Assembly: GCA_949292335.1 (NCBI GenBank)
Contig: CASEYY010000007.1
Span: forward strand, 1-49,870
DNA from: an uncultured Pseudomonadota bacterium
GTDB taxonomy: Bacteria; Pseudomonadota; Alphaproteobacteria; RF32; CAG-239
Length of the DNA: 49,870 bases
Reading direction: 5' to 3'
This document shows positions 2,827-27,128 of this stretch, piece by piece (the stretch's first letter is position 1; each line of letters starts with the position of its first letter). Both the position numbers and the translations under genes were made by a program. A model generated the notes under the pieces. That model saw only the letters and a program-made list of their open reading frames with translations. It was not told where the DNA came from and ran no database searches.

Positions 2827-2844
2827 ACTGGTCTGACTTAGGCT

Positions 2845-2873
2845 TATATACAGATATTTTTTTTATCGGTCAA
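2845..2873 (-). promoter_or_regulatory. Promoter of tRNA-Glu
   Basis: On the minus strand, -35 TTGACC (2868-2873), a 17-bp spacer and -10 TATATA (2845-2850), 18 bp before the mature tRNA 5' end. Confidence 0.75.
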
Positions 2874-2901
2874 GCTTTTTTTTCATTATTTTTTTATTTT
2901 T

Positions 2902-4089
2902 TTATTTTTTATCAAAACTCGGATGCAAAACCTTTATCGCATCACTCATATGTATAAGCCTTATTCCCTTCCCTGATAAACCCGGTAACCATTCTTGCAA
3001 TGCCGCATAGGTCGCTGTCTTGGGGTGACCTATGGCTATCGCATATCCGTTCTTTCTTGCCAAACCTTCTACCTTTTTTAATTGACCTAATATATATGTC
3101 TTGTCATTATTGTTATCTAAAAATACATGACGATGTGCATAGGCTATCCCCTCCGCCTCTGCCGCCTCTTCGGCTCGCGATTTGGCCGAGGTCTTGGAAT
3201 CTAAAAAGAACATCCCGCGTTTTTTTAATATCTTCATTATAACTCTCATCCGCTCAAAATCTTCGGTCAATTTGCTGCCCATGTGGTTATTTATTCCCTT
3301 TATGCCCGAAAATTTTTCAAGCATCTTTTCAAAATTGGCTCCGACTTCTTCTAAACTCATCTTGGTGGTTAAAACATCCGGTGCCGCATCTATATTACTC
3401 GAGGCCTCCATTGGCGTATGCAACATAATCTCGTGTCCCGACTTCTTGGCCGCCGCAATTTGTTCTTCAAGATTGTTCCCATAAGTTAAAAATGCTACCG
3501 TCAGCGGATAGTGCAGACTGATTATATCCGCCGTGCGTTTTTTGCTTATGCCCATGTCATCAATAACTATAACCACCTTGGGTTCCTTACCCCAATAGGC
3601 CGGCTTGTGCGGCGGTACAAAAGTAACTTCTTTTAAATGCGGCTTCTCCTCCTTGAGACTTTCATCAATAACATCATAGGGCAATTCTTCCTCATATAGC
3701 TTATCCAGCAAATTGTGCATATCGCCGTTAATTTGCAAATCAACATTATAACCGTTACCGGCTATCAATGATATTTTTTGCCGCAAATCTTCATCCATTT
3801 CACCGGTGTCCATCAAAATAATCTCCGATGAATTTCCATCCTGCTTATGATCGTCTTGTCCGGATATCTGCCAACAGTTTATATCTTCATTGTTGGCACA
3901 AAACAATTCGTATGATGAGATTTCATGCAAAACCGGTAATTCCGGCTCAGCCGTCGCTACTTGCTGCCTTGCCGCTTCTTTGCCTGATCGGAAATAAAAA
4001 AACAACATCAAACCTAACACCAACACAACCAAGAAATGCAAGCTCTTGATTAGAAAATATCTTAATTGTGTCGGTGTTAGTTTAGGCAA
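2902..4089 (-). CDS. Divergent polysaccharide deacetylase family protein (DUF610/YibQ-like)
   Basis: A 395-residue envelope protein with a short cytoplasmic N-terminus, one membrane segment (about 14-33) and a periplasmic domain. A variable linker (40-165) precedes the NodB-related divergent polysaccharide deacetylase domain, recognisable by VIVIDDMG (173-180), LHTPME (223-228), INNHMGS (266-272), FFLDS (294-298) and AIGHP (352-356). Family members are thought to act on cell-wall or surface glycans, but the substrate is not known. The start is a TTG three bases after the lysS stop, so the gene is probably translated by coupling or re-initiation from the lysS message. Family call is secure; enzymatic role is inference. 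Confidence 0.85.
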   Translation of the reverse strand: MPKLTPTQLRYFLIKSLHFLVVLVLGLMLFFYFRSGKEAARQQVATAEPELPVLHEISSYELFCANNEDINCWQISGQDDHKQDGNSSEIILMDTGEMDEDLRQKISLIAGNGYNVDLQINGDMHNLLDKLYEEELPYDVIDESLKEEKPHLKEVTFVPPHKPAYWGKEPKVVIVIDDMGISKKRTADIISLHYPLTVAFLTYGNNLEEQIAAAKKSGHEIMLHTPMEASSNIDAAPDVLTTKMSLEEVGANFEKMLEKFSGIKGINNHMGSKLTEDFERMRVIMKILKKRGMFFLDSKTSAKSRAEEAAEAEGIAYAHRHVFLDNNNDKTYILGQLKKVEGLARKNGYAIAIGHPKTATYAALQEWLPGLSGKGIRLIHMSDAIKVLHPSFDKK

Positions 4090-4092
4090 GTT

Positions 4093-5565
4093 CTAGTCTT
4101 TTCTTCTCATTGTCGGAAAGGCAATAACATCACGAATGGTTTCGGCGTCGGTAAGCAGAATCGCCAAGCGGTCAAGTCCCATTCCCATACCACCGCTTGG
4201 TGGAAATCCGTTTTCCAGGGCATTGACGAAGTCTTCATCCAGCATTTGTGCCTCGTCATCGCCCTTCTCTCTGTCGGCACATTGGGCTTCAAACCGTTCT
4301 CTTTGCTCCAGAGGATTCGATAATTCCGAGTAAGCACAGCCCATCTCCATTCCGCATACATAGGCGTCAAAATGTTCTACCAAACGCGGATTATCACGAT
4401 GGGTCTTAGCTAACGGCGATATATCTCTCGGCATATCCATTACCAATATCGGTTGTATTAAATTAGCTTCGACCTTGGCATCAAACACTTCCGAGATAAC
4501 TTTGCCCCAAGAAATGCACTCCGAAGCGTCAACTCCTACCGATTTGGCCATGGCTTGAGCCTCTTCCAAGGTGTTGGCTTCCATAAAATCTACCCCGGCA
4601 TATTCTTTGACCAAATCTATCATCGATTTCTTGGCAAACGGCTTGGCCAAATCTATTTCATTGCCTCTGAAATTTATCACGGTCGTACCCAAGACTTCTT
4701 TAGCTACAAAACGCATTAAATCGGGAATTAATTCTGCCATATCATTATAGTCGGCATAAGCCTGGTAAGCTTCCAAACCGGTAAATTCGGGATTGTGGGT
4801 CTTGTCTATACCTTCATTTCTGAAGTTACGACCGATTTCAAAAACCCTGTCAAAACCACCGACAACCAATCTTTTCAAAAACAGCTCGGGGGCTATACGC
4901 AAATATAAATCCATATCCAGCTTATTATGGTGAGTAATAAACGGCTTAGCATTGGCTCCACCCATTATGGTATGCAACATCGGAGTTTCAACTTCCAAAA
5001 AGCCGTGCTGTTCAAAATAGTGACGAACCGCCGAAGTTATGGCACATCTTTTACGAAAAATTTCTTTACTGTCTTCGTTCATTATGAAATCAACATATCT
5101 CTGACGATATCTGGCCTCAACATCGGTCAGGCCGTGAAACTTTTCCGGCAAGGCCTGCAAAGATTTTGATATAATATCAAATTTTTCGGCGGCAATCGAT
5201 AACTCACCTCGCGGCGTGCGGCGGACATAACCCGAAATACCGACAATATCTCCGACATCAAGATTTTTCAATATCTCCAAATCTTCTTCCGATAAGTGGT
5301 TCTTGTGGCAAAAAGCCTGAATCTTACCGCTGTAATCCTTAATATCAATAAACATACCGTTATTGCGAACCGCCATGGCTCGACCGGCGACTACCACTCT
5401 GTCTTCGGTATCGACACCGGCGGCCAAATCTTTATATTTTTCTTGTAAATCAGCGGCAAATGCCGTGGGTTTATATCTGTACGGGTATGGATTGTAACCT
5501 CTGTCTTGAAGATTCTTTAACTTATTGAGTCTCGATTCACGATGAATATTGCTTTCAACTGTCAT
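4093..5565 (-). CDS. lysS: Lysyl-tRNA synthetase, class II
   Basis: Charges tRNA-Lys with lysine in the cytoplasm. About 490 residues, the normal class II length. The N-terminal third is an OB-fold anticodon-binding domain ([21 protein letters not shown] region), followed by the class II catalytic core: motif 1 near the [14 protein letters not shown] region, motif 2 at [15 protein letters not shown], and motif 3 at [14 protein letters not shown] close to the C-terminus. Two ATGs are available. The upper one at 5571 touches the AGGA Shine-Dalgarno, while the one at 5565 (protein beginning MTVESN) lies 7 nt from it and is preferred. It is transcribed with the downstream deacetylase gene and divergently from lexA. 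Confidence 0.97.
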
Positions 5566-6462: not shown

Positions 6463-6885
6463 ATGAAATTATTTAATAAAGTACTGGCTCTTGGTGCGAT
6501 TGCTTTGCTTGCTGCTTGTGCAACCGCTCAAGACTATGATAATATGCTTAATAAATATATGGGAGCGTCGCAGGCCGAAATTATTAAAAAATTCGGTGCT
6601 CCTTCGGCAGTAAAAATTATAAACGATAACACAACCGTATTGGCTTATACCAATGTTGATAATGTTTTTGTTCCTTCCGAATATTACACTTATGCTCCGG
6701 CAGGTGAGCTTTACGGGCAAGACGGCGTATTCTATCCGTTCTTGAATGATTATGATTTTGACAGCCCGTTCTGGTCACCGGGATATGAGGTCGAGTATGT
6801 CTGCAAAACCGTATTCTTGCTGCAAAATGACAAAGTTACGGCGTGGAAATGGCAAGGAAATAACTGTGTCGCGTCTGACTGGTAG
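6463..6885 (+). CDS. Small lipoprotein, BamE/SmpA-like region
   Basis: Begins with a lipoprotein signal, MKLFNKVLALGAIALLAAC, in which Cys19 would be lipidated. After it comes YMGASQAEIIKKFGAPS, which resembles the first helix of BamE/SmpA-like domains, then an aromatic-rich stretch and paired cysteines (YVCKTVF, GNNCVA). 140 residues. A frame-extending TTG at 6460 was set aside because AAGGAG (6449-6454) is spaced 8 nt from the ATG at 6463. Location is probably the inner leaflet of the outer membrane. Function is not known; the BamE resemblance is only local. It is a single gene closed by a strong terminator. Confidence 0.75.
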   Translation: MKLFNKVLALGAIALLAACATAQDYDNMLNKYMGASQAEIIKKFGAPSAVKIINDNTTVLAYTNVDNVFVPSEYYTYAPAGELYGQDGVFYPFLNDYDFDSPFWSPGYEVEYVCKTVFLLQNDKVTAWKWQGNNCVASDW

Positions 6886-7067: not shown

Positions 7068-7388
7068 ATGGATTTCGGATTGGATATTCAAAAAAAATTA
7101 AGACAATATTGGTTGATAGTAATAAGTTGTTTTATTGTGGTCTATTTCGGATTTCACAGTTTTTGCGGCGAAAGAAACATCTATCGATATTTTGCCTTGA
7201 AAGAAGAAATTGCTCAAGCTCAGAAAACAGCCAAACAATATTCCGAACAACTGCACAGACTGCAAAGAAAAGTGCAACATTTGTCCGATAACAGTTTAGA
7301 TATAGACTTGTTAGATGAGAGGGCTAGAGTAGTTTTAAATATGGCTGCCGATGATGAATTTATTATATTAGACAATGATGTCGACTAA
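7068..7388 (+). CDS. ftsB: FtsB/DivIC-like septum formation protein
   Basis: A 106-residue bitopic membrane protein: a short cytoplasmic N-terminus, a membrane helix (about 14-34), a coiled coil (about 40-75) and a C-terminal LDERARVVLNMAADDE segment typical of the alphaproteobacterial FtsB/DivIC family. Such proteins join FtsL and FtsQ at the division site and regulate septal wall synthesis. In many alphaproteobacteria this gene sits next to eno or pdh genes, not seen here. The next gene, convergent, is murE, also a wall-synthesis gene. The call rests on architecture and the C-terminal motif. Confidence 0.8.
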   Translation: MDFGLDIQKKLRQYWLIVISCFIVVYFGFHSFCGERNIYRYFALKEEIAQAQKTAKQYSEQLHRLQRKVQHLSDNSLDIDLLDERARVVLNMAADDEFIILDNDVD

Positions 7389-7390
7389 AA

Positions 7391-7423
7391 AAAGGCTTGA
7401 ACCTAAGGTTCAAGCCTTTTTTG
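7391..7423. terminator. Bidirectional terminator between ftsB-like gene and murE
   Basis: Perfect 12-bp stem AAGGCTTGAACC / GGTTCAAGCCTT (7392-7403, 7407-7418), 3-nt loop, A-run on the left and T-run on the right, so it can work for both convergent genes. Confidence 0.92.
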
Positions 7424-7426
7424 TAT

Positions 7427-8836
7427 CTATATGTTTTTCAATATTTCTTCATGATCACTAAAGTGCTTTATTTCACCTTTTATGTATTGGCCGGTTTCGT
7501 GTCCTTTACCGGCAACCACCAGAACATCCCCCGGCAACAGATTATCTATGGCCATTTGAATGGCTTTGGCTCTGTCTCCTATATTATAGGCTCCCGGACA
7601 TGCCGGAATAATCTCGTTTCTGATATCCTCAGCTTCTTCAAAACGCGGATTATCATCGGTTATATAAACGACATCGGCCAAATCATGAGCTATTTTTCCC
7701 ATAATCGGACGCTTACCGGAATCGCGATTACCTCCGCAACCAAAAACAACATGCAATTTGCCTTGAGTATGAGGACGCAGTGCCTGCAATACATTTTCCA
7801 ATGCATCCGGCGTGTGAGCATAATCTACGTAAACTCCGGCACCGTTAACCGTGGTGCCGACAAGCTCCAATCGGCCTTTAGCACCTTTAATCTTATCAAT
7901 ATAATGTACCACATCATCGGGCAATCCGGTCAATGCTGCCAATATTCCTAAAGCACACAACACATTCATGGCTTGAAATTTTCCGGCCAATGGAATTTCA
8001 ATACTTTTTTGTTGCCCGAAATATTCAATATCCAATCTTTGACCGTGTGGTAAAGCTTCGGAGTTTAGCAACTTTATATCTTGCCCGCCGACGCCGTATG
8101 ATATTATTTTTTGTCCTCTCTGCTCACAAACTGCGGCAATTTTGCCGTATACATCAATATCGGCATTTAAAACCGCCGTGCCGCCTTGTTTTAAATTTTG
8201 GCGGAAGAGAATCAATTTGGCATCAAGATAATTTTCAAAAGTCTTGTGATAATCCAGATGGTCGCGGGTCAAATTGGTAAAGCCCGCTACTTCGAAGGTT
8301 AACCCGCCAAGACGATTTTGGTGCAAACCATGACTCGATGCCTCTAGAATCGTATAGTTGACCCCATCGTCAGCTATTTGCTTGAGCTCACGATGCAAAG
8401 CCACATTATTGGGTGTTGTATTCGGCGATGGAATCGGGGCTTCGTTACCGACAATTAACCCCAAGGTGCCGATACTGGCGGCTTTATACCCCATCATGGT
8501 CAAGACTTGACGCACAAAATCGGCAATAGAGGTCTTGCCGTTAGTCCCGGTGATTGCGGCTAAATGTTCCGGTGTCTTACCAAAATATCTGGCAACTGCC
8601 TGTGCGTAGGTATAAGACGGATTCTCCGAGCGAATAAATTCTACGCCCTTGACTCCTTTTCCATCGTATTCTTGCGGAACAATGACCGCTACCGCACCTT
8701 TAGCAACAGCATCGGCGACATAAGCCGTATCCGGTAGCGCTCCAAATAAAAAGCCTGGCGAAACCTCCCTTGAATCGTTGGTTATCCCTTTGATTTCAAC
8801 ATCTGCTGAAGTATTTACCAATTTGTTTAATTTCAT
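7427..8836 (-). CDS. murE: UDP-N-acetylmuramoyl-L-alanyl-D-glutamate--2,6-diaminopimelate ligase
   Basis: Adds the third residue to the peptidoglycan stem peptide in the cytoplasm, using ATP. The 469-residue Mur ligase has the N-terminal UDP-substrate domain, the ATP-binding P-loop ITGTNGKTS at 95-103, and the C-terminal domain with the DNPR motif at 395-398, which in MurE marks meso-diaminopimelate (not lysine) specificity. A GAGGAA Shine-Dalgarno precedes the ATG. The gene stands alone, not in a dcw (division and cell wall) cluster: upstream is a divergent secreted-protein gene and downstream the convergent ftsB-like gene. Confidence 0.97.
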   Translation of the reverse strand: MKLNKLVNTSADVEIKGITNDSREVSPGFLFGALPDTAYVADAVAKGAVAVIVPQEYDGKGVKGVEFIRSENPSYTYAQAVARYFGKTPEHLAAITGTNGKTSIADFVRQVLTMMGYKAASIGTLGLIVGNEAPIPSPNTTPNNVALHRELKQIADDGVNYTILEASSHGLHQNRLGGLTFEVAGFTNLTRDHLDYHKTFENYLDAKLILFRQNLKQGGTAVLNADIDVYGKIAAVCEQRGQKIISYGVGGQDIKLLNSEALPHGQRLDIEYFGQQKSIEIPLAGKFQAMNVLCALGILAALTGLPDDVVHYIDKIKGAKGRLELVGTTVNGAGVYVDYAHTPDALENVLQALRPHTQGKLHVVFGCGGNRDSGKRPIMGKIAHDLADVVYITDDNPRFEEAEDIRNEIIPACPGAYNIGDRAKAIQMAIDNLLPGDVLVVAGKGHETGQYIKGEIKHFSDHEEILKNI

Positions 8837-12944: not shown

Positions 12945-15569
12945 ATGCCTATTGATGACAGAGATACATCACCTGAGTTTGAAGCCCAAAACAATAATCA
13001 AGATCGCCGTGAATTTGTCGGAAGAGAATTTATGAGCGGAGAATTTAGCTCCCGAAAGAGTTTCAATTTCTTTCTGGATCAATATCTCAAAGGTGAGCTC
13101 ATTATTGATAACACACCTGAGAACAAAGAAAAATTATATGAGCTCTTAGGCGGCGAACAAGGCATTTTGCTAGAACAAGAAAAAATGGCCGCCAGAACAG
13201 TAAAAGATTTTGCCTCCGACCGCAAAGTCAGAGCCGGCATGGCAACTACGGGTATGGCGGTAAGCGAAAATATGGTTGAGGTTGACGGCAAAGAGCTGAC
13301 CGATGCAATCGCTTCTTATAAAAAACGCAGTGGCAAAGATGATGTGAATGATTTGATTAAAGAGGCTCAAATTGCGGCAGCAAATCGTATGCTTGAAGGT
13401 TCTCTTGATAATTACTATGATTTGAAAAAACAACTTCAATCACAAAAGGACAATCTATCTCCTTGGAAATTACGGCCGAGATTAAAAATTGAAAAGGCCA
13501 TACGCGATATGGATCCTTCGGCTTATTATTCGACAAAAGAAAATGATGCGACCAATTTAGTATCAAAATATTATTATAAAGCAAGAGGTTGGTTTGCAGA
13601 CCGAAATGATAACGCGGTCACAAGAAACACTAAAAAACTTGAAGCGGTTATGAAACTAAAAAACAAAGATGCTTCAACAAAGTGGATGAGTAAGCAATTT
13701 GGCGAAAAGCTGGGGGCTAAGTTTAAGTTGTTTTTTAGAGCTTCGGAAGAACGTTTACAAAAAAGGATATTAAAAAAAGCCAGTCAGCGAGATTTGAAAA
13801 ATTTGCAAGACAAAATTGCCGGATTTGCCGCCGAAAACTCCGGCAACCAGTATTTTGACAGGAAAAAAATTGAAGCTCAAGCTAAAAGAGCGGCTCAGCT
13901 TGAGGCTATGAGTAAAGCTTGCATTGAAAGAAGCTCTGAGTTAGGTAAATTAAAAGAAACGACTCTGGAAGCCCTAGGAGCAAAAGAATTTGACAGCAAA
14001 AACAAACCGCTCGATAAGATTAGTAAGATATTGAATGATAAAGTTGCGAAGATTCAACATCAGTTTGCCGAGGCATCGGCTAAAAATCCAAAACTACAAG
14101 CATATATAAAATTAAACGGAGGTCAGCTGCCGGAAAATGCGTTGGTTAATCGCGAAATAATTACAACCGATGCCGTTTTGCAACAGATGTGCAAGGATTT
14201 GGGCTTTGAAAGTACCGATGCTTTCTTAAAAGCACAAGGGCTGTCCGATAACGAAATTGAAAGTGTTAAACAAAAAATAACCGCTAAAAAGGTGGCTACA
14301 GAAGAAAAATCGGCCGAAGAAAGACCCGAAAACGACCAAGAAAGAACTAATCAGCAAGAACAACAAAATACAACTACTTTAGAGACAGAAGCGGCACAAT
14401 ATCAGAACCAACCCGAGGAGGTAAACGAGACTGTTTCAACCGGCAGAACCTCAAAATTGGGAAGTGAGTATAATTATGACGATAAGTTCTTTAACTTTAG
14501 TCTTGATGGTTATACCAGAGGCGACGGAGAGAATTTCTACACTTCCGAAAATGGCAATACCTTGGTTGTCGGAACCAGCAAGGATAGTAATGATTATTTT
14601 ATCTCGGCTCGTGATGCCGAAGGACAAAAGAGACCTCCGGAGGGTAATGAAATTGATGTCTTGGTAAAACAAATGGTTGCCGACGGAATTACCAATGTTA
14701 ACCTAAACGGTGATTTTGACGGAGCGACCAAAGAAGCAATGCTACAAAAATTTGCCGAGAATAACATCGTGGTAAACAATCGCGAAGAGGTAGAAAAAGA
14801 GGTTGCTCAGTGGAGGGAAACTCAAGCACAGGCAAAGACGCAAGAGCAAGAGGTAAAACAACCCGAGGCAGAGGCTAAAACATCAGAAGAGCAAGCCAAA
14901 AACAACGAAGCGAATGAAAATACTGCCGAACAATCACCTAAGGTTCAAACACCAAATACAGATAAGGTAGCGGAAGAAAAAATGAGCATTGAAAAGGTGA
15001 TGATTAATGCAGTATCAAACTCGGCCTCACAAGAAGAACAAATTAAAAAGATAAAAATGATTGAAGGTATCCAAAAAGGAGAAAAAATAGCTTTTGCCGA
15101 AATTAATGATACATTCGGTGCTAAATCGCCAGAAGCGGCATTTTTGAGAGAAGTTGCCGCGGCTAAAGAGCTTCAGGTGATGGAAGAAGCTTCGGAAATT
15201 AAGGAATGGATTAATGATGAAAAAGCCAATGCCGGTATAAGGAGTGTTCACGACATCAATAAAGTCACCATAGTTTCGACGGTAGCAAAAATAGCAGAAA
15301 ACTTTAAGGATAAAGATATAAAAGAAGTTGAAAATGATGATGCATTTAAATTATTGCCCAAATATGCCAAGCAGGGGGTTAAGAATTTGATAAGTGTTGA
15401 AAATTCAAAAGATTTGACTCCGGGGCAAAAGACGACATTACGCGGGCAAATTTTAGGTAAAGTTGTTGAGGGAAAAATGTCGACCTTCAATAAAGCAAAC
15501 TCTGGTAAGAGCAGAGCTATTAATTTACGCGAAGCCGTGAAGAATCATAATTCTGCTCGAGGTGCTTGA
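12945..15569 (+). CDS. Large unrecognised protein, charged, coiled-coil-rich, no signal peptide
   Basis: 874 residues, not recognised. There is no signal peptide and no membrane helix, so it is cytoplasmic or exported by a signal-less route. The first ~440 residues are helical and Lys/Glu/Ala-rich. A Glu/Gln-rich linker follows (about 445-505), then a compact segment (about 505-625; contains ENGNTLVVGTSKDSNDYF and VNLNGDFDGATKEAMLQKF), a second acidic Gln/Glu linker and a helical C-terminus ending in a basic tail. The arrangement of folded pieces and disordered acidic linkers resembles the other giant protein at 36777. It has a GAGGAG Shine-Dalgarno at good spacing and its own terminator. An effector, scaffold or polar-organising role is possible but unsupported. 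Confidence 0.8.
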   Translation: MPIDDRDTSPEFEAQNNNQDRREFVGREFMSGEFSSRKSFNFFLDQYLKGELIIDNTPENKEKLYELLGGEQGILLEQEKMAARTVKDFASDRKVRAGMATTGMAVSENMVEVDGKELTDAIASYKKRSGKDDVNDLIKEAQIAAANRMLEGSLDNYYDLKKQLQSQKDNLSPWKLRPRLKIEKAIRDMDPSAYYSTKENDATNLVSKYYYKARGWFADRNDNAVTRNTKKLEAVMKLKNKDASTKWMSKQFGEKLGAKFKLFFRASEERLQKRILKKASQRDLKNLQDKIAGFAAENSGNQYFDRKKIEAQAKRAAQLEAMSKACIERSSELGKLKETTLEALGAKEFDSKNKPLDKISKILNDKVAKIQHQFAEASAKNPKLQAYIKLNGGQLPENALVNREIITTDAVLQQMCKDLGFESTDAFLKAQGLSDNEIESVKQKITAKKVATEEKSAEERPENDQERTNQQEQQNTTTLETEAAQYQNQPEEVNETVSTGRTSKLGSEYNYDDKFFNFSLDGYTRGDGENFYTSENGNTLVVGTSKDSNDYFISARDAEGQKRPPEGNEIDVLVKQMVADGITNVNLNGDFDGATKEAMLQKFAENNIVVNNREEVEKEVAQWRETQAQAKTQEQEVKQPEAEAKTSEEQAKNNEANENTAEQSPKVQTPNTDKVAEEKMSIEKVMINAVSNSASQEEQIKKIKMIEGIQKGEKIAFAEINDTFGAKSPEAAFLREVAAAKELQVMEEASEIKEWINDEKANAGIRSVHDINKVTIVSTVAKIAENFKDKDIKEVENDDAFKLLPKYAKQGVKNLISVENSKDLTPGQKTTLRGQILGKVVEGKMSTFNKANSGKSRAINLREAVKNHNSARGA

Positions 15570-15743: not shown

Positions 15744-15779
15744 CAAAAAAATCCCCCGCCCTATTACCAGAACGGGGGA
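15744..15779 (-). terminator. Terminator of the giant cysteine-rich protein gene
   Basis: On the minus strand, TCCCCCG pairs with CGGGGGA (15773-15779 and 15752-15758), followed by a run of seven T. Confidence 0.85.
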
Positions 15780-15830: not shown

Positions 15831-18800
15831 TTAAAATTTGTCCCATGCTTTGATAGTTTTATCGCTCCACTCTAGTTCTTGCCATCCTCCGCTACCGTCT
15901 TCTACTTCTTCTATTCCCCAATCTTTCCAGTTTTTATCACCTTTGTTGTCATCACTGCGTCTACGAATGTTACCACCATTGTAGTTATCAACACAGAAAT
16001 AAAAATGGCAAGTTACACCTTTGTCATCCCAGTCAGTGCAAAAATCAATTCTTTTATCGGCAGGCACTGTTGAAAATTCTGCAGTATCGCATCTACACAT
16101 GCTCCAATTGTAATGCACGCCATCGTCATCTATGCACTCCTCGCCTTCTGTAATTATCTTACAAGTACCACCTATAAATCCATTCGTTGTCATTTGAGGA
16201 GATTTTGTACCGGATATCCTTCCGTAATCGAAACAAATAGGTCCCTCTAATGTACCATCACGAAGTTGAGTTATTATACTTTCATTTGCTCCTTTTTCTA
16301 GGCAACTGTTAGGTTTGTTATAAGATGCTGGACATGAACATTTAGTATATAAATTCAGCGGGAGCCATATATCTCTCTCCCAAGAAGCATTAATAGATGC
16401 TCCAACCTCACTTAGCTCCAAAACAGATGAGTCTCCGTCATTTAAATTTGCACTTTTTACTCCGCACGTCTCACTATCATAATATGTAACATCTTCTTTT
16501 AAATCTACTGAGCATTTGTAATATATTTTATGTTCGCACCCTGCAATAAATGTTGCATTATAGCCATGGCCACATTTCTCTTTTACTCTATTATACACTC
16601 CTGTCTCACCCAAAGCAGATATCATCTGCTGAACACTATCATATTTACCAGCAAACTCTTTATAGACTTCCGTATCTATGGTAATATCGCATCCGCACAA
16701 TCTTTCTGCTGCATAATATGTATCGTTGTCTTTTGGGTCTTTGCAGAATTGTGGACCTGTATATGTTTCATCGACAGATAAGCCTTTACCTGTGCAATAA
16801 GCCTCGGCATCATTGGAATTTAATCCGTTCGATGTATCAAATAGGTCTGCATCACAAGGGCATGCGTTATAGAACTTTTCGTTGGTATCTCCTCTATGAC
16901 AATACTGCTGCGGAATTATGTGTACTGCAGCATCACAACTTGAAGCCGGAATGTTGTAGTCATTAGGGCATGAACAACTTTCAAAGTATTCATCACCAGA
17001 ATAATAAGACGAACCATCGACATTAGTAAATCGGTCAATACAAGAGCCTTTACCAATAACAGTGTTGTTAGCGTCGGGTTTATTATCTGCGCCTTTAAAC
17101 TGATTACATATTACCATCTCATCTTTTTTACAGAGACATCTGTCATAAAGATCTGTTCCGTTAAGACTACAAGAAGTTAAACCTGCCTGATCATAACTGT
17201 TATTATCGGTACATGGCAGAGTAAACTGCGGTTTACACATACAACCTTTGTAGTAGGTATCGTTGGTTTTTAGTCCGCCTTCACTGGTGGGAACAACTCC
17301 TCTGACCACACATGAACCTTCGTTCACATTAACCATGGCACCTGGTTCGGCATTACAATCAGCAGCCGTTACCGAATATTCCTGTGTACAATCGCAACCT
17401 TTATAAAACTTTGAGGCATTTATTTGGCAATAATCATTCTCATAACCAGAGGGCAGAACCTCGCCGGCAGATGCTCCGGAGCATGAATATTTGTATTCAG
17501 AGGCACATTCGCAACTCTTATAATACTTGGTTCTGGTTTCTTGGGTTGAGGTAGAGGTTGCGCCGGTATCGGGATCGGTGGTGGTAGTGGTTGAAGTTTC
17601 TACAACTTCACAGTAATCATTGCCGCTGGGCGGAACAATACCTTTGTTGCCGGTCTCTGATGCCTGACAAGTATATTTATATTTGGTGCGGTCACATTCG
17701 CAAGTAGAATAAACCGTGGTGCCAAAACTACCGTCTGAATTCAGAGGTGTACATTTTTTGCCTTTGGTGGCATTTTGGGTATCGCAAGTTTTGTAACTAC
17801 TGGGACAAGGACAAGATTTGTAGAGCTTGTTGCCGTTTTCATCAATGCAGGATTCGCCTAAATATGCCGGATCATAACCGGAACAAGAATATTTGAAGCC
17901 ATTGGTCAAACAATTGTTGGTATCGCGGCAAGAAGCATATTTAACCACACTGGCAGAGGTTGATGAACCATCTTCGCCGGTGCTTGTCGTGGTTGAGGTA
18001 CAGCTACCACCCTCGCCGATTTGGGCAGAGGTACAAACCTTATAAGTCTCTTCTTGGAACGGAGTACAATTAGCAGCCGAAGCATTACATTCGCTCCAAT
18101 AGGTTACCTTACTGCCGTCGGCATTGGTTTGTGTACATTTATCCCCACTACCGCCTTCGCAAGCTTGCCAGTTACTCGGGCATTTACATAAGTATTTGAT
18201 AGTCTGCTTGCCTTCGGCATCGGTTGATACACAGGGCGAATAGCTTTCTTGATTGGTATCACAAGCGGTAACATGTCCGGGGGTGCATTCGTTGGTCTCA
18301 GGTTTGGTGCATTCTTTGTAATATTTTACCCCATTGAGTTCGCAGTAATTGCCGACGCCAACCTCACCTTCGCCGCAAACTTTGTCATAACCATTGGCAC
18401 AGGTGCAAGATTCATAATAGGTGGTGTTGTCACGAGTGCAAGGATTTACACCAATCTGCAGCGGACCTGAGCAGGTTTCGGTTGCCAAGGAAGTACAGTT
18501 TGTTTGGGCTTCACATTTTTTGTAATAGGACACACCTTTGAGATTGCAGGGTTCGCCAACACCAACCTGACCGGTAGGACATACTTTATACTCTGCCGGA
18601 CAAGAGCAAGCCTTGTAGCCACCGACATTACCTTGATTGTCTTGACAAGCCTGACCAACCGGAATTAGCGGAGAATCACATTTTTCGGTATATTCCCAAG
18701 TACACTCTATAACCGAACATTGGTAGTATTTCTTGCCGCAGCCGTTATCTTTCCATACGCCGGTAGGTTTTTTGCCGCCGGGACAACCATAGTAGTTATC

Positions 18801-21800
18801 GGCCCAGTTTTCGGGTAATTCATCGGGCACACATTGACAAGACTTATACTTGCCGTTGCAAGCGGTGCCGACGCCTTGATAACGACCGCTGCCGTCTTCA
18901 TCACAAACTTCGGTATATTCGGCTGAGCATTCACAATAAGGATATAACGGCAAGCTCTGACCAAGTTTGAGATAGCCTTCATCTACCGCTTCGTTAACCG
19001 AAGAATCTCTACGCATAAAGTCTGAGGTTATTTCTTGCTGACAAGCGTTACCGGAGAGCAAACCGCCACAGTTGTATTTATGATGTTTGTAAGCGCTGGC
19101 ACATAGGCACTCTTTCCAGGTCTTTTTACCATTAATGATTACATAATCGCCGGTTAAATCATGACGAACACCGCAGTTGGCCGTGGTATATTTAAACTCG
19201 GTCGGGTCATAATAGCAGTTGTAGGCTCTTTTATATCCGGTATCGGCTCCGTATTCGCACAACTGAACCGAAATTCCGGGTCCATGTTTGGAAGCACATT
19301 CGTTTTCGCTGTTAACTACGGAAGTGATGGTCATGGAAGTAACTTTTTCGCCGTTTATCATGACATTTTTGCCGCATTCACTCAACTCTTTGAGAATTTT
19401 GCAAGCACCGTTAAGATAATGCGGACGACCGTTTTTCATCAGTGTCGAACCATCACCGTATTTGCAGAAATTATCACCATCGGGTTTTTCATAAGGATAA
19501 TCGCAGGGATCAGTATAGGTTGAGCTATCACAGCTTACTTGCCATTTTTCGACACCATCTAAGGTACATTTCACTATTTCGGCTCCGGAGCCATAGGTAT
19601 TTACCAACTCTTGATATTCTTTAGATCCTTCTTCTATGGCTATGGTTGAGCTTTCTTCGGAGCATTCGGCAAAGCTACATGCACTGTAATAGGTAATATC
19701 ACCGGAGCGGCACATGGTGGCATTTTCGGCCGGAAGCTGATTCGCTTCCGAGCACTCAACGAAAGCTGCCGGACAATAGCATGGATAAACTAAGGTATTA
19801 TTGGCAGAGCAATAAGCCTGACTTTCAAAACCAAACTTAGCACCATTCCCCATCTCCATTTTGCATAAAGTAGAGGTTGGGGTTGATTCTTCGGAACTTA
19901 GGTATCTGTAGGCTCCGTCTTGGGCTGTATCGGCTAATAGGACATCACATCTGGCAACGCAGTCGCGATATTTGAGATTGTCGTTGCCTTCTAAATCACA
20001 AGTTATACCACTGGGCTCGGCAGTATAGTCCTCTGATTTGATTTCTTTGTTGGCATTTTCAACCGTAACATTTTGGACATCACAAAAGTTTTCATCTTCT
20101 TCAGTTGCTGCCGGATCATAATAAGTGCTTAGGCATTTGCAAGCTGTACGTTGGTTGGCATTTTCGTCATTGCAGGTAAAGTCAAGCTCGCCACCGATAA
20201 ATTGGCAATCTTCTTCACTATAATAAAGCGGACGGTCAGAAGGGCAAAAACGCATATATTCGGCATATTTGCTATTACCAATATCATAACGACAAACAGC
20301 TCCGGAACCGGTATAATTATAGACACATTCACGATACTCATCGGTCATACTGCCGTCTTCGTTTGTGCCGAACTCTTCACTGCACCACTCGTTGAGGGTT
20401 TTAAAGTTTGGAGGGCAGGCACAAATATATTTTTCTTCTTTGGTACCTGTCTGGGTACACATTTCCGGATTATCGTTTCCACCTCTGACACCGGACGGAT
20501 AAACGCCGACATTGGGACAATCATTGGTGGTATCGGAATATTCTTTGGCATATTCGGTGCCACAAATATAGTTACAATTTTTGTATTTGGTTATGGGAAG
20601 ACCATTTTCATCGGTATCGTAAGTACAAGCGGTGCCACCACGTTCTTTGGTGGAATCTTCACAAGTGGTGCCATAGTTATAGGGACATCTACATAAATAT
20701 CTGAGACCAGCTGCCGTATAGCTTCCATCTTCTGCTGCTTCATAACATTGGATTGCATTAATGGAGGATGTATCATCACCGCTGACTTTACAGTTATTTT
20801 TATCATCTTGCACTTCTTGGCCATCCGGACATTTTAAGACATAGCCGGTATATTTAATATCAGCTTCGTTACCGGTCTGAACTTTGAGAACTGTACAAGC
20901 GGTACCATATCCGACATAGTCGGTCATACAATCGTATCCTGAGACTATCTCGTCGGCATTGGCAGCACACCATTCTGCTTTGGTTTTATACTCCGCTGGG
21001 CAATCAAAACTTTCATAAACAGTTTGGTTATACATCTCATCTGCCGGATAAGTTTGACAAGTTTTGCCAACACTAACGATATAATTGTCGATACAACTAT
21101 CTATATCTTCGTAAGTTTCGGAACCAATTGTAATTTTAAGCCCAAATGCATGGTTCTCAGAGCAGAAATCTCTTTTGGTTTTCCAACCGGTCGGACATGT
21201 ACATCCAGCATAGACTTTGTTATTGGGATCGGTTTGATATGAACATAACCTAGGCTCACCATTAACCTCTGTACATTTGGTTGTTGCCTCTTCTAAAGAA
21301 GAGTACGAGTGACTACAATAGGTACAAACCGTTTTTAATTTGTTAAAACCGTTTGCATCTTGGTATACACACTCTTCTTCCAAATCTTCGTTGTCATATG
21401 TATTCTCACATCCTTCACTAGGTCTATCTATCACTTGATATATAGACATTAAATAGTTGCAGGAGGTGTCTCGGCTCCAATCATCACATTTTTGTATAAT
21501 ATTTCCGTCGGCATCTTTGTCCAATATACATTCATTGGAACTACAATAAGATTGTTGTAAGCAATTTTCATAATCAGCTTGGTCAGCACAAGACTCTTCT
21601 TTGGTTATGTAATCAGTACCACAACCTGTGCATTTATAGAAGTATGTATCTTCATCGTCGGTGGCATTTACTCTGAAATGGCAATCTTCAGATCCTCCTC
21701 CTTCAAACGGCTTACAACTCGAGTTATTTCCAAGATCATACCCTTTACAATAAAAGCCAACATAACCAATTTTAGAACCTTGTTTACATGCGACAGGGGT

Positions 21801-22688
21801 GCGTAGGCTATATTCAGAAGCAATATCTGTCGTATGATAGCCTTCATTCTCCTTTGCTTCGACCAACGCTCCGCAGGTTTGCAGAGTGTCATAACTACAT
21901 GTAAAGGCCAAACACATTAAGCTATCTTCACCACACTGCACCTGACAAGGAATTGCAGCATGCTCATTCGCGGGATCATCTTCGTTGCACATATCCGAAT
22001 CTGTACTTGGCCCACTATAATTTGATGCGGGACAAGCGATGAGAGATTTGTAGTGTTTTTCATCCGATGGATCTACATATCCATAATACCTAATACTTTC
22101 ATCTCGAGAGTTGGTACAAGTTCCTAGTGTTGCATTATAGTCATCGGCTTTAGTAAAAGAATCACTGCTAAGACTCTTATCGGTGAAGGATTGTATTAAT
22201 CCTCGGTAGAGACACATTGAAATATCATTGTTAGATAATACAGTTTTTCCGTTGCTACGATTGTTGCCATAACACAGATCAATAACTCCGACATCAATTA
22301 TTTTTTTTGCTTCTTCAAGTTCAAAGATAGAATCATTGTATATGAAGTTGTCTGGACACAGATCAAGCATTATATCGGTTTGACCATTGCAGCATTCGTA
22401 TTTAGCACAGTCTGTTGGACTATTATAATTAGGTCCTGCAAACTCACATTGCGAGTAATGATATATATAATTATTAGGGCACGTAACTGGAGATTTACAA
22501 CCAACGGAGGGGCCGTCCGATGCTTGTGGGGCTTTTTGTTGCGGAATCGGGGTTTGTCCATAGGTCGTGGCACGAACGGCATAATTCGTGTCTGATAACG
22601 AGGTGACTGCTGCATAGCCTATGCCATGCAGACTTATTAATGCAGAAATACCTAAAACTATCTTCCATATTCTCGACATTTTGCCCAT
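15831..22688 (-). CDS. Giant secreted cysteine-rich repeat protein
   Basis: 2285 residues, not matched to a named family. An N-terminal signal peptide (MSRIWKIVLGISALISLHG, cleavage near GYA-A) sends it out of the cytoplasm. Nearly all the rest is a chain of modules of roughly 35-60 residues with the pattern C-x-C-P/A-x2-Y-x(3-6)-C ... G-x2-C ... Y-Y-x-S/K-C. At least 22 Cys-x-Cys doublets can be counted (for example ACSCPAEYKVC, SCTCANGYDKVC, SCECASEYKYSC). Thr/Ser-rich spacers interrupt it in the middle. No membrane anchor, sortase signal or barrel is seen at the C-terminus. The cysteines are probably disulfide-bonded, giving a long stalk or surface fibre. An AAAGGGG Shine-Dalgarno lies just before ATG 22688; the in-frame ATG at 22679 is an alternative start. 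It forms a single-gene unit with its own promoter and terminator. Confidence 0.88.
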   Translation of the reverse strand: MGKMSRIWKIVLGISALISLHGIGYAAVTSLSDTNYAVRATTYGQTPIPQQKAPQASDGPSVGCKSPVTCPNNYIYHYSQCEFAGPNYNSPTDCAKYECCNGQTDIMLDLCPDNFIYNDSIFELEEAKKIIDVGVIDLCYGNNRSNGKTVLSNNDISMCLYRGLIQSFTDKSLSSDSFTKADDYNATLGTCTNSRDESIRYYGYVDPSDEKHYKSLIACPASNYSGPSTDSDMCNEDDPANEHAAIPCQVQCGEDSLMCLAFTCSYDTLQTCGALVEAKENEGYHTTDIASEYSLRTPVACKQGSKIGYVGFYCKGYDLGNNSSCKPFEGGGSEDCHFRVNATDDEDTYFYKCTGCGTDYITKEESCADQADYENCLQQSYCSSNECILDKDADGNIIQKCDDWSRDTSCNYLMSIYQVIDRPSEGCENTYDNEDLEEECVYQDANGFNKLKTVCTYCSHSYSSLEEATTKCTEVNGEPRLCSYQTDPNNKVYAGCTCPTGWKTKRDFCSENHAFGLKITIGSETYEDIDSCIDNYIVSVGKTCQTYPADEMYNQTVYESFDCPAEYKTKAEWCAANADEIVSGYDCMTDYVGYGTACTVLKVQTGNEADIKYTGYVLKCPDGQEVQDDKNNCKVSGDDTSSINAIQCYEAAEDGSYTAAGLRYLCRCPYNYGTTCEDSTKERGGTACTYDTDENGLPITKYKNCNYICGTEYAKEYSDTTNDCPNVGVYPSGVRGGNDNPEMCTQTGTKEEKYICACPPNFKTLNEWCSEEFGTNEDGSMTDEYRECVYNYTGSGAVCRYDIGNSKYAEYMRFCPSDRPLYYSEEDCQFIGGELDFTCNDENANQRTACKCLSTYYDPAATEEDENFCDVQNVTVENANKEIKSEDYTAEPSGITCDLEGNDNLKYRDCVARCDVLLADTAQDGAYRYLSSEESTPTSTLCKMEMGNGAKFGFESQAYCSANNTLVYPCYCPAAFVECSEANQLPAENATMCRSGDITYYSACSFAECSEESSTIAIEEGSKEYQELVNTYGSGAEIVKCTLDGVEKWQVSCDSSTYTDPCDYPYEKPDGDNFCKYGDGSTLMKNGRPHYLNGACKILKELSECGKNVMINGEKVTSMTITSVVNSENECASKHGPGISVQLCEYGADTGYKRAYNCYYDPTEFKYTTANCGVRHDLTGDYVIINGKKTWKECLCASAYKHHKYNCGGLLSGNACQQEITSDFMRRDSSVNEAVDEGYLKLGQSLPLYPYCECSAEYTEVCDEDGSGRYQGVGTACNGKYKSCQCVPDELPENWADNYYGCPGGKKPTGVWKDNGCGKKYYQCSVIECTWEYTEKCDSPLIPVGQACQDNQGNVGGYKACSCPAEYKVCPTGQVGVGEPCNLKGVSYYKKCEAQTNCTSLATETCSGPLQIGVNPCTRDNTTYYESCTCANGYDKVCGEGEVGVGNYCELNGVKYYKECTKPETNECTPGHVTACDTNQESYSPCVSTDAEGKQTIKYLCKCPSNWQACEGGSGDKCTQTNADGSKVTYWSECNASAANCTPFQEETYKVCTSAQIGEGGSCTSTTTSTGEDGSSTSASVVKYASCRDTNNCLTNGFKYSCSGYDPAYLGESCIDENGNKLYKSCPCPSSYKTCDTQNATKGKKCTPLNSDGSFGTTVYSTCECDRTKYKYTCQASETGNKGIVPPSGNDYCEVVETSTTTTTDPDTGATSTSTQETRTKYYKSCECASEYKYSCSGASAGEVLPSGYENDYCQINASKFYKGCDCTQEYSVTAADCNAEPGAMVNVNEGSCVVRGVVPTSEGGLKTNDTYYKGCMCKPQFTLPCTDNNSYDQAGLTSCSLNGTDLYDRCLCKKDEMVICNQFKGADNKPDANNTVIGKGSCIDRFTNVDGSSYYSGDEYFESCSCPNDYNIPASSCDAAVHIIPQQYCHRGDTNEKFYNACPCDADLFDTSNGLNSNDAEAYCTGKGLSVDETYTGPQFCKDPKDNDTYYAAERLCGCDITIDTEVYKEFAGKYDSVQQMISALGETGVYNRVKEKCGHGYNATFIAGCEHKIYYKCSVDLKEDVTYYDSETCGVKSANLNDGDSSVLELSEVGASINASWERDIWLPLNLYTKCSCPASYNKPNSCLEKGANESIITQLRDGTLEGPICFDYGRISGTKSPQMTTNGFIGGTCKIITEGEECIDDDGVHYNWSMCRCDTAEFSTVPADKRIDFCTDWDDKGVTCHFYFCVDNYNGGNIRRRSDDNKGDKNWKDWGIEEVEDGSGGWQELEWSDKTIKAWDKF

Positions 22689-22732: not shown

Positions 22733-22762
22733 ATATTAGCATAACTTTACAAGCTTTGGCAA
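22733..22762 (-). promoter_or_regulatory. Promoter of the giant cysteine-rich protein gene
   Basis: On the minus strand, -35 TTGCCA (22757-22762), 18-bp spacer ending in ATGC, -10 TAATAT (22733-22738), 44 bp before the start codon. Confidence 0.55.
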
Positions 22763-22811: not shown

Positions 22812-22840
22812 AAGCCCTCATCTTTTGAAATGAGGGCTTT
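22812..22840 (-). terminator. Terminator of the RND efflux operon
   Basis: Stem AAGCCCTCAT / ATGAGGGCTT (22812-22821, 22830-22839) with an 8-nt loop, 18 bp after the RND stop codon; the minus-strand tail is TAATTTTG. Confidence 0.75.
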
Positions 22841-22857: not shown

Positions 22858-25800
22858 TTACTGCTGCGATTTGTGCTTGCCTACCGTTATCTGGTACAAG
22901 CTCTCAAATAATACATATAACAAAGGTATTACTATCAAGCCAAGTGCCGTTCCTAACAGCATTCCGTAAAACACCGGAACACCTATCGCTACACGGCTGG
23001 CTGCACCGGCACCGGTGGCCACAATCATCGGGAACACACCTAAAATAAAGGTAAATGCTGTCATCAATACCGCTCTGAACCTTTCTTTGGTGCCGACCAT
23101 TGCCGCTTTGACCAATGTTGAACCTTTTTCATGTTCTTCTTTGGCAAACTCAACAATCAAGATTGCGTTCTTACTGGCAAGACCTACCAACAGTATCAAA
23201 CCTAATTGAGCATAAATACTCAATGGCAAACCGGTGATAAACAATCCGACCAGAGCCCCCAACATGGCAACCGCAACCGAGGTCAAAACCGGCAACGGCG
23301 TAATCCAGCTCTCGTACTGGGCGACCAGAAACAAATAACCAAAGATTATCGCCAAGGTTATCAAATAACCTATCTGCCCTTGTGATGATTTCTCCTGATA
23401 ACTGATACCAGACCACTCATAACCAAAACCTTCCGGCATCGTCTTGGCTAACTCTTCTACCGCAGCCATCGCTTCACCGGTACTTACCGCCGGGTTTTGT
23501 ACCGCAGTTATCGAAGCCGACGGATATTGGTTGTAACGGCTTACTACACGCGGTGATAATACTTTGCTCAAGCTTAGCACGCTATCCAATGGTACCATCT
23601 CGCCATTTTCGCTTTGGACATGCAAATTCTTTATCGAATCTATATCACTACGGTTCTTCCAATCGGCTTGTATCATTACTTTGTTTACCTGCGTACCGAA
23701 GTTTACATCGTTGATATATGCAGAACCTAAGTAATACTGCAAGGTTGAGAATATACTCCCGATACCTACCTTCATCGCTTCGGCCTTTACCCTGTCGATA
23801 TCTACATAAATGTTCGGGGTCTTGGCCGTGTAGGTCGTGTAGGCATAGGATATCTCCGGCAACGCATTCATCTTGCCTAAAAATGCCATCAATGCCGCTT
23901 CTATCTCTTGCGGATTGTCGGTGTCCATCGATTGTAAACGGAAATCCATACCACCGCTCATACCTAGTCCCATAATTGCCGGCGGCTCAAATAATTGAAC
24001 TTCGGCTTCCGAATATTCTCCCAATATACCTCTTAAACGATTCATTATGTTGGTCGAATATAATTCATCCCCTTTCCTTTCGTTCCACGGCTTTAATACC
24101 GTAATTACCATCGCAACATTCTCGCCAGTACCGCCAATCATACTTACACCGGTAATGGCCATGACCGCATCTACTCCAGGCTCTTTCTTGATAAGAGGAA
24201 CTATCTTGTCAACAAAGGCTTGCGTCCGCTCTCGCGAGGCTCCTTCGGGAAGCTGAACATTGCCCATGATAACACCTTGATCTTCGGAAGGAATAAATGA
24301 TGTTTGGCTGATATTCAATATTCCCGCAATGACCAATAGTGCCAGTCCGTATACAACCGCTACAACGCCTATCTTGCGTCCGAATATTCCTACAATACCG
24401 GCATAGGTATCTCTGCCCTTGGTTACTACCTGGTTAAACCAAAATAATGGTCCATGCTCAACCGGTTTTAGCGGACGCAATATCGTCGCACATAATGCCG
24501 GTGACAAGGTTAAGGCATTTAATGCCGAAAATGATACCGAAACCGATATGGTGACCGCAAACTGCTGATAAATCTTTCCGGTAATTCCGCCCATGAATCC
24601 TACCGGCACAAATATCGCCAACAATACCAAGGTCGTGGCTACAATCGCTCCGGAAACCTCACTCATGGCTTGTATGGTGGCTTCCTTCGGCGTGATATTT
24701 TTTTCTTCCATCAAGGCTAAAACACGTTCAACCACAACAATCGCATCATCTACCACCAAGCCGATTGCCAATACCAAGCCAAATAATGTCAACATATTCA
24801 AGCTATATCCTAAGGCCAACATTACGGCAAAAGTGGCCAACAATGATACCGGAATGGTTAAACTTGGAACCAAGGTCGACCGCCAGTCTTGTAAAAAGAT
24901 ATAGCATACAAAAATAACCAAGGCAAAAGTGAATATCAAGGTTAAGACAACTTCCTCAATGGAGGCCGTAATGTATTTGGTCGAATCATAACCAATCAAA
25001 TAATCTACACCTTCGGGAAAGTTAGCTTTTAACCGCTCAAGCTCGGCTTTAAGATTTGTCATCGCATCCAAAGCATTGGCTCCGGTTAACTGGTTGATGG
25101 CTATTGCCACATTCGGAACTCCATTATACTTTGAAGCCGCTTTATAACTCTCTTCGCCTATCTCTATACGAGCAATATCTTTTAACTGTACCAAACCTCC
25201 CTCTTCGGCCGTACGAACGATAATGTTCTTAAAGTCTTCAACCTCATTAATACGACCTTGAGTCTGCAAAGCATAAACTATCTGCTGTTTACCGTCGCCC
25301 GGCATTGAACCGACTTTACCTAATGAGGGTTGGTAGTTCTGACCTTCAATCGCCGATACAATCTGTGCCAACGGCAAATTTAAGGCAGCGATTTTGTCGG
25401 CGTCAAGCCATACGCGCATACTTAGTCTCGCCGAATATACATTTACTTCACCGACACCATCAACACGAGCTAAGCTGTTTTTCATGTTATTTTGCACATA
25501 GTTTGCCAATTCCGAGCTGCTTAAACTGTTGTCAGGCGAAAATACCGAAACAAAGCCCAAAATGTTTGACGAACGGCTACGAACCGTCAAACCTTGCCTT
25601 TGCACCTCGGTCGGCAACATGGATGTGGCTTGTTGAATACGGTTTTGCACTTTGACTTGTGCCATGTCCGGATCGGTTCCGACCTTAAAGGTAATGGTCA
25701 ACTGGTACGAAGAATCTTCCGATGAGGAAGACATATAAATCATGTCCTCGACACCGTTTACCTGCTCTTCCAACGGAATACCGATGGTTCTCGCAACTAC

Positions 25801-25968
25801 TTCCGCCGATGCTCCGGGATAAGTCGCCGAAACAACAATCTCCGGCGGCGTAATTTCAGGATATAACGCAATCGGAAGCGAAAATACCGATATCAATCCG
25901 GCCAACGACAATACGATGGATATTACCATCGCAAAACGAGGGCGTTCAATAAAAATCCTTGAAAACAT
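22858..25968 (-). CDS. RND multidrug efflux transporter (AcrB/MexB type, HAE1 family)
   Basis: Inner-membrane proton/drug antiporter that works as a trimer with the periplasmic adaptor and a TolC-type channel. 1036 residues, the usual length. The N-terminus [20 protein letters not shown] gives TM1, and two large periplasmic loops (about 30-330 and 555-860) separate two sets of six helices. Proton-relay residues Asp407-Asp408 ([11 protein letters not shown]) fall at the same numbers as in E. coli AcrB, and the TM10 lysine is present in [16 protein letters not shown]. It follows the adaptor gene by 2 bp. No outer-membrane channel gene is in the operon, so a TolC elsewhere must be used. Confidence 0.96.
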
Positions 25969-25970: not shown

Positions 25971-27128
25971 TTATTTAGCCTCCTCTACCTGATTGGATAC
26001 CAAGCTGGCTCTCACTTTAGAACCATCTTTTACTTTTTGCAAACCGCTGACAATAATCTTTTCATTACCATCAAGACCTGACAAAACAATCTGCTTATCC
26101 TCAAACAAACCATCCAACTGAACTCTTCTCTCACTCACATTGCCTTCCTGATCAACAACAAAAACATATGAGCCGTTAGTGTCTTGCATTACTGCCGCCG
26201 GCGAAATAATTATCGCCGGAGTTTCTTTGGCCGATGATAATATTACATTTACATAGTTACCGGCAACCAACATCCGATCTTGGTTGGCATATTCCAAGTA
26301 AATCGGAATGGTCGCAGTATTCTTATTTACTTCGTTATTTACAAAATAAGAAACCATGTTGTCATTCAAGATACTGCCGTCTGGCAATACTAAACGCGTT
26401 TTCAATCCGCTGGTACCTAATTTTTTGAAAAATAAATTGTCTTTATCCGGAACCGAGAAAGCTACCCTTATCGGCGAGGCTTGGATTATACGAGCCAAGG
26501 TTTGAGTATTGGAACTTACATAGTTACCTTCGGTGACTTCGGCTTTACCGATTAGACCGGTTATCGGAGCTTTAATTTCGGTGTGCTTCAAATCAATCTG
26601 AGCCAATTCCAAGTTTGCTTCGGCCTGTGCTACCGCTGCTTTGGCTTGCAAATATGCACTCTCTGCCGTATCCAAAGTGGACTTGGACGCATATTGTTGG
26701 CTGCTCAAGGCTTTTTGTCTTTTGTAGTCTCTTTCGGTCTTAACCAAATTGGCCTTGGCACTGTCCAAAGCGGCCTTGCTCAAGTCAACATTGGCTATGT
26801 ATCTGTCTTGCTCAATCACAAAAAGAATATCGCCTTCTTTGACTACCGAACCTTCTTGGAACAATACTTTATCAACATAACCCGATACCTGCGGTATCAA
26901 ATCGACACTCTTAATCGCTTCTACCGAGGCTATATATTTCCTTTGCGGGGAAACATCGGTCTTGAGCACATCTTCTACCAAAACATGGGGGGTTACCATA
27001 CCGGCTCCGCCCATCATTGATGTTACCGGCGTAAGCTTGGTCTTTAGGTACCAACCTATGCCTATGCACAACATTATAACCACAAAATTAAGAACTATTT
27101 TTCTTTTCTGAATTTTGACCACTTGCAT
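25971..27128 (-). CDS. RND efflux periplasmic adaptor (AcrA/MexA type)
   Basis: 385-residue membrane fusion protein bridging the RND pump and the outer-membrane channel. An uncleaved N-terminal membrane helix (about 11-28) replaces the lipoprotein signal of E. coli AcrA: there is no lipobox. Then come the split lipoyl domain ([19 protein letters not shown] and [19 protein letters not shown]), an alpha-helical hairpin between them (about 105-185), and the beta-barrel and membrane-proximal domains. The gene starts 3 bp after the tetR stop and ends 2 bp before the pump, a tight three-gene operon. Confidence 0.95.

Follow-up and report, generated by a model that had tools for sequence, protein, structure and literature searches.

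What kind of protein is the 2285-residue, cysteine-rich chain encoded in a 49,870-nucleotide stretch of DNA (the window) from an uncultured alphaproteobacterium, and what might it do for the cell? The sequence-only reading that drew attention to it gave the right coordinates and length (Table 1) and left the strand unstated; the plus-strand frame over the same interval contains many stops, and the coding strand is the minus strand. The protein has a pI of 4.4, a mass of 248 kDa without its signal and 180 cysteines, which make up 7.9% of its residues (histidine, 0.8%), with none in the first 60 positions. It bears one signal peptide and, in line with the earlier statement that no anchor is seen, no second membrane segment or other strongly hydrophobic stretch, the best 19-residue KD value from residue 31 on being 1.04. 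The ATG is preceded by AAAGGGG. The gene had also been credited with its own promoter and terminator: hairpins are indeed found on both sides, while the promoter-like site is weak, and with 26 promoter-like sites in the region against 20.9 (sd 4.1) in shuffles, and 6 terminator-like sites against 5.8 (sd 2.4), we regard a promoter of its own as plausible only.

Table 1. Features of the window and of two retroelement loci in sister genera (coordinates are those of the window unless a locus is named)
Feature	Position	Strand	Basis
Cys-module protein gene (2285 aa)	15831..22688	minus	ORF from ATG to stop (22688..15831), Cys statistics, module parse
Signal peptide, about aa 1-26	22611..22688	minus	hydrophobic stretch about aa 7-30; N-termini of relatives; cleavage near YAA/VTSL, by eye
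N-terminal part, about aa 27-750	20439..22610	minus	32-64% identical to L024; 81-93% to L086/L023, pS 0.12-0.28
Conserved core, about aa 751-1800	17289..20438	minus	78-98% identical to L024, 89-97% to L086 (150-residue windows)
Hypervariable C-terminal part, about aa 1801-2285	15834..17288	minus	identity falls from 45 to 33% (L024) and from 62 to 37% (L086)
AlphaFold2-modelled stretch, aa 1196-1534	18087..19103	minus	mostly beta-hairpins
Terminator-like hairpin after the Cys-module gene, 12 pairs and T tract	15752..15779	minus	terminator scan
Hairpin between RND and Cys-module genes, terminator-like on both strands	22812..22839		scan
Weak promoter-like site TTGCCA-18-TAATAT, TG before second hexamer	22733..22762	minus	promoter scan
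RND efflux permease	22858..25968	minus	family match; upstream neighbour in 16/24 loci
RND periplasmic adaptor	25971..27128	minus	family match
G423 retroelement, L113 (G423:C40)	RT 1522-2820; small gene 3081-3431; target 3594-4148		
G362 retroelement, L114	RT 2632-3948		

The body of the protein is a real array of four-cysteine modules, far above what shuffled sequences produce. Parsing recovered 33 modules that account for 1367 residues and 132 of the 180 cysteines (48 lie outside the parse), whereas the same parse on 200 shuffles with the cysteines kept in place averaged 13.6 modules and never exceeded 21. The module follows approximately C-P-x2-[YFW]-x(2-6)-C-x(8-20)-C-x(10 or more)-[YFW]-x2-C, often with a glycine three places before the third cysteine, and measures about 30-57 residues, its cysteines being mostly 5-17 apart among recurrent Tyr, Pro and Gly. 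Across 17 proteins, successive modules are linked by one residue (185 cases) or by five (32 cases); with the next module beginning after a single residue, the CxC doublets mostly represent module junctions. The motif counts vary in weight. Neither the 22 CxC doublets (shuffle mean 14.2; reached in 39 of 2000 shuffles) nor the 24 GxxC motifs (32 of 2000) say much alone, and the counts of CxCP (9), CxC with an aromatic residue four places on (CxC-x3-aromatic; 16) and Y[YF]xxC (8) were each equalled by none of 2000 shuffles. The claim of at least 22 CxC doublets within a repeated cysteine-module pattern thus holds. In addition, CC (1) and CxxC (2) are strongly depleted relative to shuffle means of about 14, which is more in keeping with structural disulfides than with metal or redox sites of the CxxC kind. 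The module alignment comprises 57 sequences, obtained from 278 modules of which 151 passed the canonical filter and 114 remained after dereplication. All four cysteines are kept in 257 of 257 distinct ungapped matches (123 gapped ones were set aside) because the profile demands them, so that cysteine pairing is not inferable from cysteine-losing modules.

The whole protein has no match in Pfam, NCBIfam, PHROG or the PDB, and the module profile retrieved no PDB entry at E 10. A match of the whole chain to a characterised family, which would have spoken against the earlier verdict of no known family, is thus not found in these four collections, and the accompanying description of a secreted, disulfide-type chain agrees with the signal peptide and the cysteine statistics, the disulfides being putative. 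Searches of the 2285 residues likewise returned no PF07603 (Lcl_C) domain, no toxin family in Pfam or NCBIfam and no recognised binding domain in the same two collections. The protein is nevertheless not an orphan: among 39 genomes, it matched 15, all of them within the 23 searched from its own genus (its own included), and none of the 16 from other genera; two of the 15 (G005 and G018) have no module match at E 0.01. Three named records match. Two carry the label Alphaproteobacteria, one of these being from roe deer caecum; the third is labelled uncultured proteobacterium. The module itself reaches further, being detected at E 0.01 in 69 of 153 genomes of the family and in 13 of its 16 genera. 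At E 0.001, only the source genome was recovered from a class sample of 289 genomes and from an overlapping phylum sample of 299, although the class sample held three more genomes of the family (G006, G194 and G290), all of which miss this cut. Within the source genome, all 11 module-profile matches fall inside the 2285-residue protein. The protein core found no relatives in IMG/VR, plasmids or phages, and the literature matches listed include no paper on the cysteine-module family. The module family is therefore lineage-restricted, found only in one family of uncultured Alphaproteobacteria.

Between relatives, the giant gene has a conserved middle and fast-changing ends. The C-terminus is the most divergent part, or among the most divergent, in all eight pairs compared (pairs that share members), and the N-terminal part is clearly more divergent than the core in six of them, the exceptions being window/L086 and L031/L032. 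Here L086 is the same record as L023, which was dropped where L086 was used; L026 (same as L024) and L082 (same as L025) were dropped too. A frameshift was rejected as the cause of the C-terminal difference to L023/L024, as the DNA itself diverges. The conserved middle with its fast-changing ends suggests a surface fibre pressed to vary, a pattern of change that probably marks an adhesin, a surface antigen or a phage receptor.

We conclude that alleles of the giant gene have been exchanged, since synonymous divergence (pS) is not expected to rise through amino-acid selection by itself. In the pair L029/L030, five neighbouring genes are 99% identical with a pS of 0.11 (0.04-0.28), whereas the giants are 81% identical with a pS of about 0.7 (0.38-0.81 per window, and 0.49-0.81 from aa 150 on). 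Along the greater part of the upstream flank, the DNA profile of this pair stays at 0.95-1.00, with two 300-nt windows at 0.83-0.87; it drops at the start of the giant gene and runs at 0.55-0.89 within it: another allele stands beside a nearly identical upstream flank. For window/L086, nine neighbours average 91% amino acid identity and a pS of 0.53 (0.43-0.63), against which the first 450 codons of the giant, at 0.12-0.23, form a recently shared stretch (rough Fisher P 8e-34, from rounded counts); the next 1350 codons lie at 0.28-0.46, and identity is 37% from aa 1950. In L028/L088, two neighbours are 97% identical and the giants 57%. Most clades of the RND and giant trees agree by eye, the clearest conflict being the grouping of L027 with L088 in the giant core (0.95) versus L028 with L088 in RND (0.99), which indicates that exchange is local rather than rampant and takes place between close relatives.

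Throughout this divergence, the cysteine frame is retained. In 38 windows below 60% identity, drawn from seven pairs, 417 of 441 cysteines are kept, or 405 of 439 when the C-C score is lowered to 4 and 412 of 456 when cysteines on either side are counted. Tyr (247/380, 65%) and Gly (276/462, 60%) follow, then Trp (58%) and Pro (55%), and the remaining fifteen residues are kept at 24-48%.

Two relatives carry additional C-terminal sequence beside the giant gene. In L032, the gene is followed by a reversed, cysteine-rich frame of 217 aa (7380-8033), and the two are linked by a 40-nt inverted repeat, 95% complementary (6631-6670 and 7994-8033): one arm lies in frame at codon 2052 of the giant, the other over the opening codons of the reversed frame. 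The two alternative ends are 34% identical over 76 residues, the repeat included. An invertible C-terminal cassette would have this appearance, and we treat the arrangement as a candidate; L032 comes from a draft genome (310 contigs, 86% complete), and the repeat could alternatively be a one-off rearrangement or an assembly effect. Such a cassette was seen in one of the 23 loci with downstream sequence, the window included, that sequence covering just 400-1500 nt in some of them. In L034, a single 18-nt repeat reaches into the giant gene with one arm, and no cassette was noted; some 6-9 kb from its giant, this locus also encodes two other cysteine-rich proteins with signal-like starts and N-termini unlike that of the giant (184-1986, 600 aa with 9.3% Cys; 2143-4614, 823 aa with 6.8%). 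In L029, a direct copy of the last ~96 aa of the giant, 86% identical, lies at and after the stop (1140-1427) and looks like a displaced C-terminus. The window contains no such copy, and no inverted repeat of 18 nt or more between 14000 and 23500; nor does the C-terminus occur a second time in its genome.

In sister genera, the module occurs in shorter, secreted-looking proteins encoded by multigene sets. The genome G423 has 48 module matches at about 20 places, although some places at contig ends may belong together as parts of a single split gene. Many matches in G423 (for example C17, C30, C9 and C26) and G424 (C24 and C26) are close to a contig end, an outcome to be expected of near-identical dispersed copies. 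Of 19 sister-genus module proteins scanned, three, all from G423, contain Lcl_C (PF07603) over the cut-off, two more (G423 and G415) contain it below the cut-off and 14 gave no match at the thresholds used. Where present in the G423 proteins, the domain follows the cysteine modules. Several G362 module proteins end in WSSSE...RPV, which is Lcl_C-like by eye with no Pfam call at E 0.01. G423 also has a diversity-generating retroelement, with an RVT_1 match at 9.7e-22, a template repeat and a small gene that we take to be Avd-like. All 20 positions at which the adjacent variable repeat departs from the template are template adenines, and the adjacent target, 184 aa seen to the contig end, resembles by eye the Lcl_C part of the module protein L107. 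Template-like stretches occur in 9 of 20 module frames tested from G423 and G362; in six, the differences are adenine-biased (P <0.02 each, uncorrected; for example 20/24 and 15/18 against shares of 0.43 and 0.34, P 6e-5 and 3e-5, uncorrected) and in three others they show no bias. These module proteins thus look like present or former retroelement targets, or paralogues of such targets. No RVT_1 match was found in the source genome or in G001, and the window has no stretch within 12 non-A mismatches of the templates from the two relatives.

The place of the giant gene is conserved in one clade, yet not obligatory. In 16 of 24 loci, the RND permease is followed, after 141-178 bp, by the giant gene on the same strand; seven have a giant without RND in the stretch fetched, and L034 is cut before the RND position. 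RND is thus probably not an obligatory partner. Downstream in the window lie orf874, on the opposite strand, and then two OMPs, so that the next same-strand gene is an OMP. Elsewhere in the window, 12945-15569 encodes a large, cysteine-poor neighbour without a convincing Pfam match, 80% identical in close and 30-34% in farther relatives, and 36735-40295 a further large, cysteine-poor protein with no convincing Pfam match. A 147-aa protein (40347-40790) has a signal-like start and then a repeated YGYNGRGDYVPTKIGNDRV unit, a C5 cytosine methylase stands beside an R.HinP1I-type restriction enzyme as a likely R-M pair (40958-42677), and a DUF5131 protein (E 1.5e-103) adjoins a 361-aa protein without a Pfam match at E 0.001 (47185-49010).

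A check for DsbA/DsbC homologues, proposed with the disulfide idea, revealed two DsbA-fold proteins in the source genome. Neither DsbB nor VKOR was found there, which leaves DsbA reoxidation unexplained and makes oxidation of the chain plausible but incomplete. A route across the outer membrane was found neither by the secretin search (no PF00263 in the source genome; control rings in 6 of 14 genomes) nor by inspecting the giants' C-terminal tails by eye, where no shared sequence was seen. The AlphaFold2 model of aa 1196-1534, built on an orthologue alignment, has a low pTM of 0.36. Foldseek returned no significant fold match for it; judged by their titles, TNF-receptor, SCR or EGF chains make up 10 of the top 11 PDB matches and 26 of the 50 listed.

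On balance, we favour the view that the giant is a disulfide-stapled exported rod with variable ends, most likely a surface-exposed adhesin or antigen. Sec would export the chain, which would fold and become disulfide-linked in the periplasm and may then be displayed as a long rod of some 33 or more four-cysteine beta modules stiffened by disulfides. A conserved central shaft would carry the fast-changing ends, and these ends, or in one species pair nearly the whole gene, would be replaced by homologous exchange between related bacteria, with the cysteine frame kept so that any allele still folds. The pressure to vary could come from phages, host immunity or rivals. The surface fibre or adhesin proposed by the sequence-only reading thus gains indirect support from the hypervariable ends, the allele exchange and the Lcl_C domain behind the module in a sister genus; nothing was seen in favour of its other suggestion, a shell protein.

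Among the alternatives, we give most weight to a spacer or scaffold that never leaves the cell, being exported by Sec, acquiring its disulfides in the periplasm and spanning or bracing that compartment. The signal peptide as the only targeting feature seen, the missing secretin and the tails without a common C-terminal signal would suit such a protein, but why a hidden protein should have hypervariable ends and exchange whole alleles is hard to see, and the module accompanies Lcl_C domains in the sister genus, so that we consider this reading unlikely. The same rapid change of the C-terminus, together with the reversed alternative end in L032, could also be expected of a weapon resembling a polymorphic toxin, in which a stalk presents a changing tip as the effector. 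The ends, however, keep the cysteine frame, no toxin domain was found, the next same-strand gene in the window encodes an OMP, and the N-terminus varies as well in six of eight pairs; this is the least probable of the explanations considered.

That the cysteines serve instead to bind metal, as a metal or thiol buffer, is an idea prompted by their abundance and by the RND pump next door, and CxC pairs do occur in metallothioneins. The depletion of CxxC and CC, the wide cysteine spacing amid recurrent Tyr, Pro and Gly, the low histidine content and the RND permease itself, which passes the cut-off for the drug-type TIGR00915 and falls short of the one for the metal-type TIGR00914, make a buffer very improbable. 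Comparably slim are the chances of a many-headed protease inhibitor composed of Kazal-, WAP- or EGF-like modules. The C-x-C-P-x2-Y motif resembles that of Kazal domains, a Kazal_CFAI match occurs on L065 (E 0.046), and WAP (E 0.0084), EGF_Pikachurin (E 0.019) and Kazal_2 (E 0.24) each match one of the 57 modules; yet these last three sit among equally weak matches to unrelated families, Kazal_CFAI is under the cut-off, each module has four cysteines, the PDB search was empty and neither the 57 modules nor the whole protein gave a convincing Pfam match to Kazal, EGF or WAP.

Beyond the surface-exposed rod that we favour, a wider and more tentative possibility is that the private four-cysteine module is the common shaft of a lineage-wide variable-surface system. 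Allele exchange, joined in at least one species by DNA inversion, would swap the ends of the giant fibres, and a diversity-generating retroelement would rewrite the tips of the sister genera's short stalks. The cysteine frame might accept nearly any sequence in its loops, like that of the variable surface proteins of parasitic protists. Long chains of disulfide modules are common in animals and protists and, to our knowledge, unusual in bacteria. As the scaffold for fast-changing ends, a module confined to one family would provide these uncultured bacteria with a recognisable surface antigen or phage receptor, and its cysteine frame would serve as a natural case of loop tolerance. Existing metagenome reads allow a direct test of the allele-exchange signature.

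Several known systems invite comparison. The small disulfide-held modules recall animal TNF-receptor, SCR and EGF chains, a likeness that the modelled fold may echo through its Foldseek titles, none of them significant. An in-frame inverted repeat with a reversed alternative C-terminus, as in L032, is reminiscent of shufflons and other invertible surface-gene switches; it is a candidate known from sequence in one of 23 loci, and the window has no such repeat. Targets of diversity-generating retroelements with DUF1566/Lcl_C domains are paralleled by some module proteins of the two sister-genus genomes, with their adenine-biased template-like stretches, whereas the source genome has no reverse transcriptase and the window no template-like stretch. 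A CdiA-like polymorphic toxin would have a C-terminal toxin domain with an immunity gene; no toxin family in Pfam or NCBIfam matched the giant, and the genes that come next are two OMPs and, on the opposite strand, orf874. Lcl, the Legionella collagen-like adhesin, is described as an extracellular, trimeric, lollipop-shaped GAG binder and type II secretion substrate whose CTD is without disulfides (PMC11162425). Like the G423 proteins, in which PF07603 follows the cysteine modules, it joins an exported stalk to a domain; in contrast to Lcl, the window protein showed neither PF07603 nor a collagen repeat, and no secretin was found in its genome. The Mobiluncus adhesin and SiiE share with the giant the character of very long, repeat-built exported proteins. 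The former is reported to repeat Ig-like domains where the window protein repeats a four-cysteine module, and SiiE to leave by type I secretion. A giant repeat-built surface protein is thus a known kind; the module and its way of varying look new.
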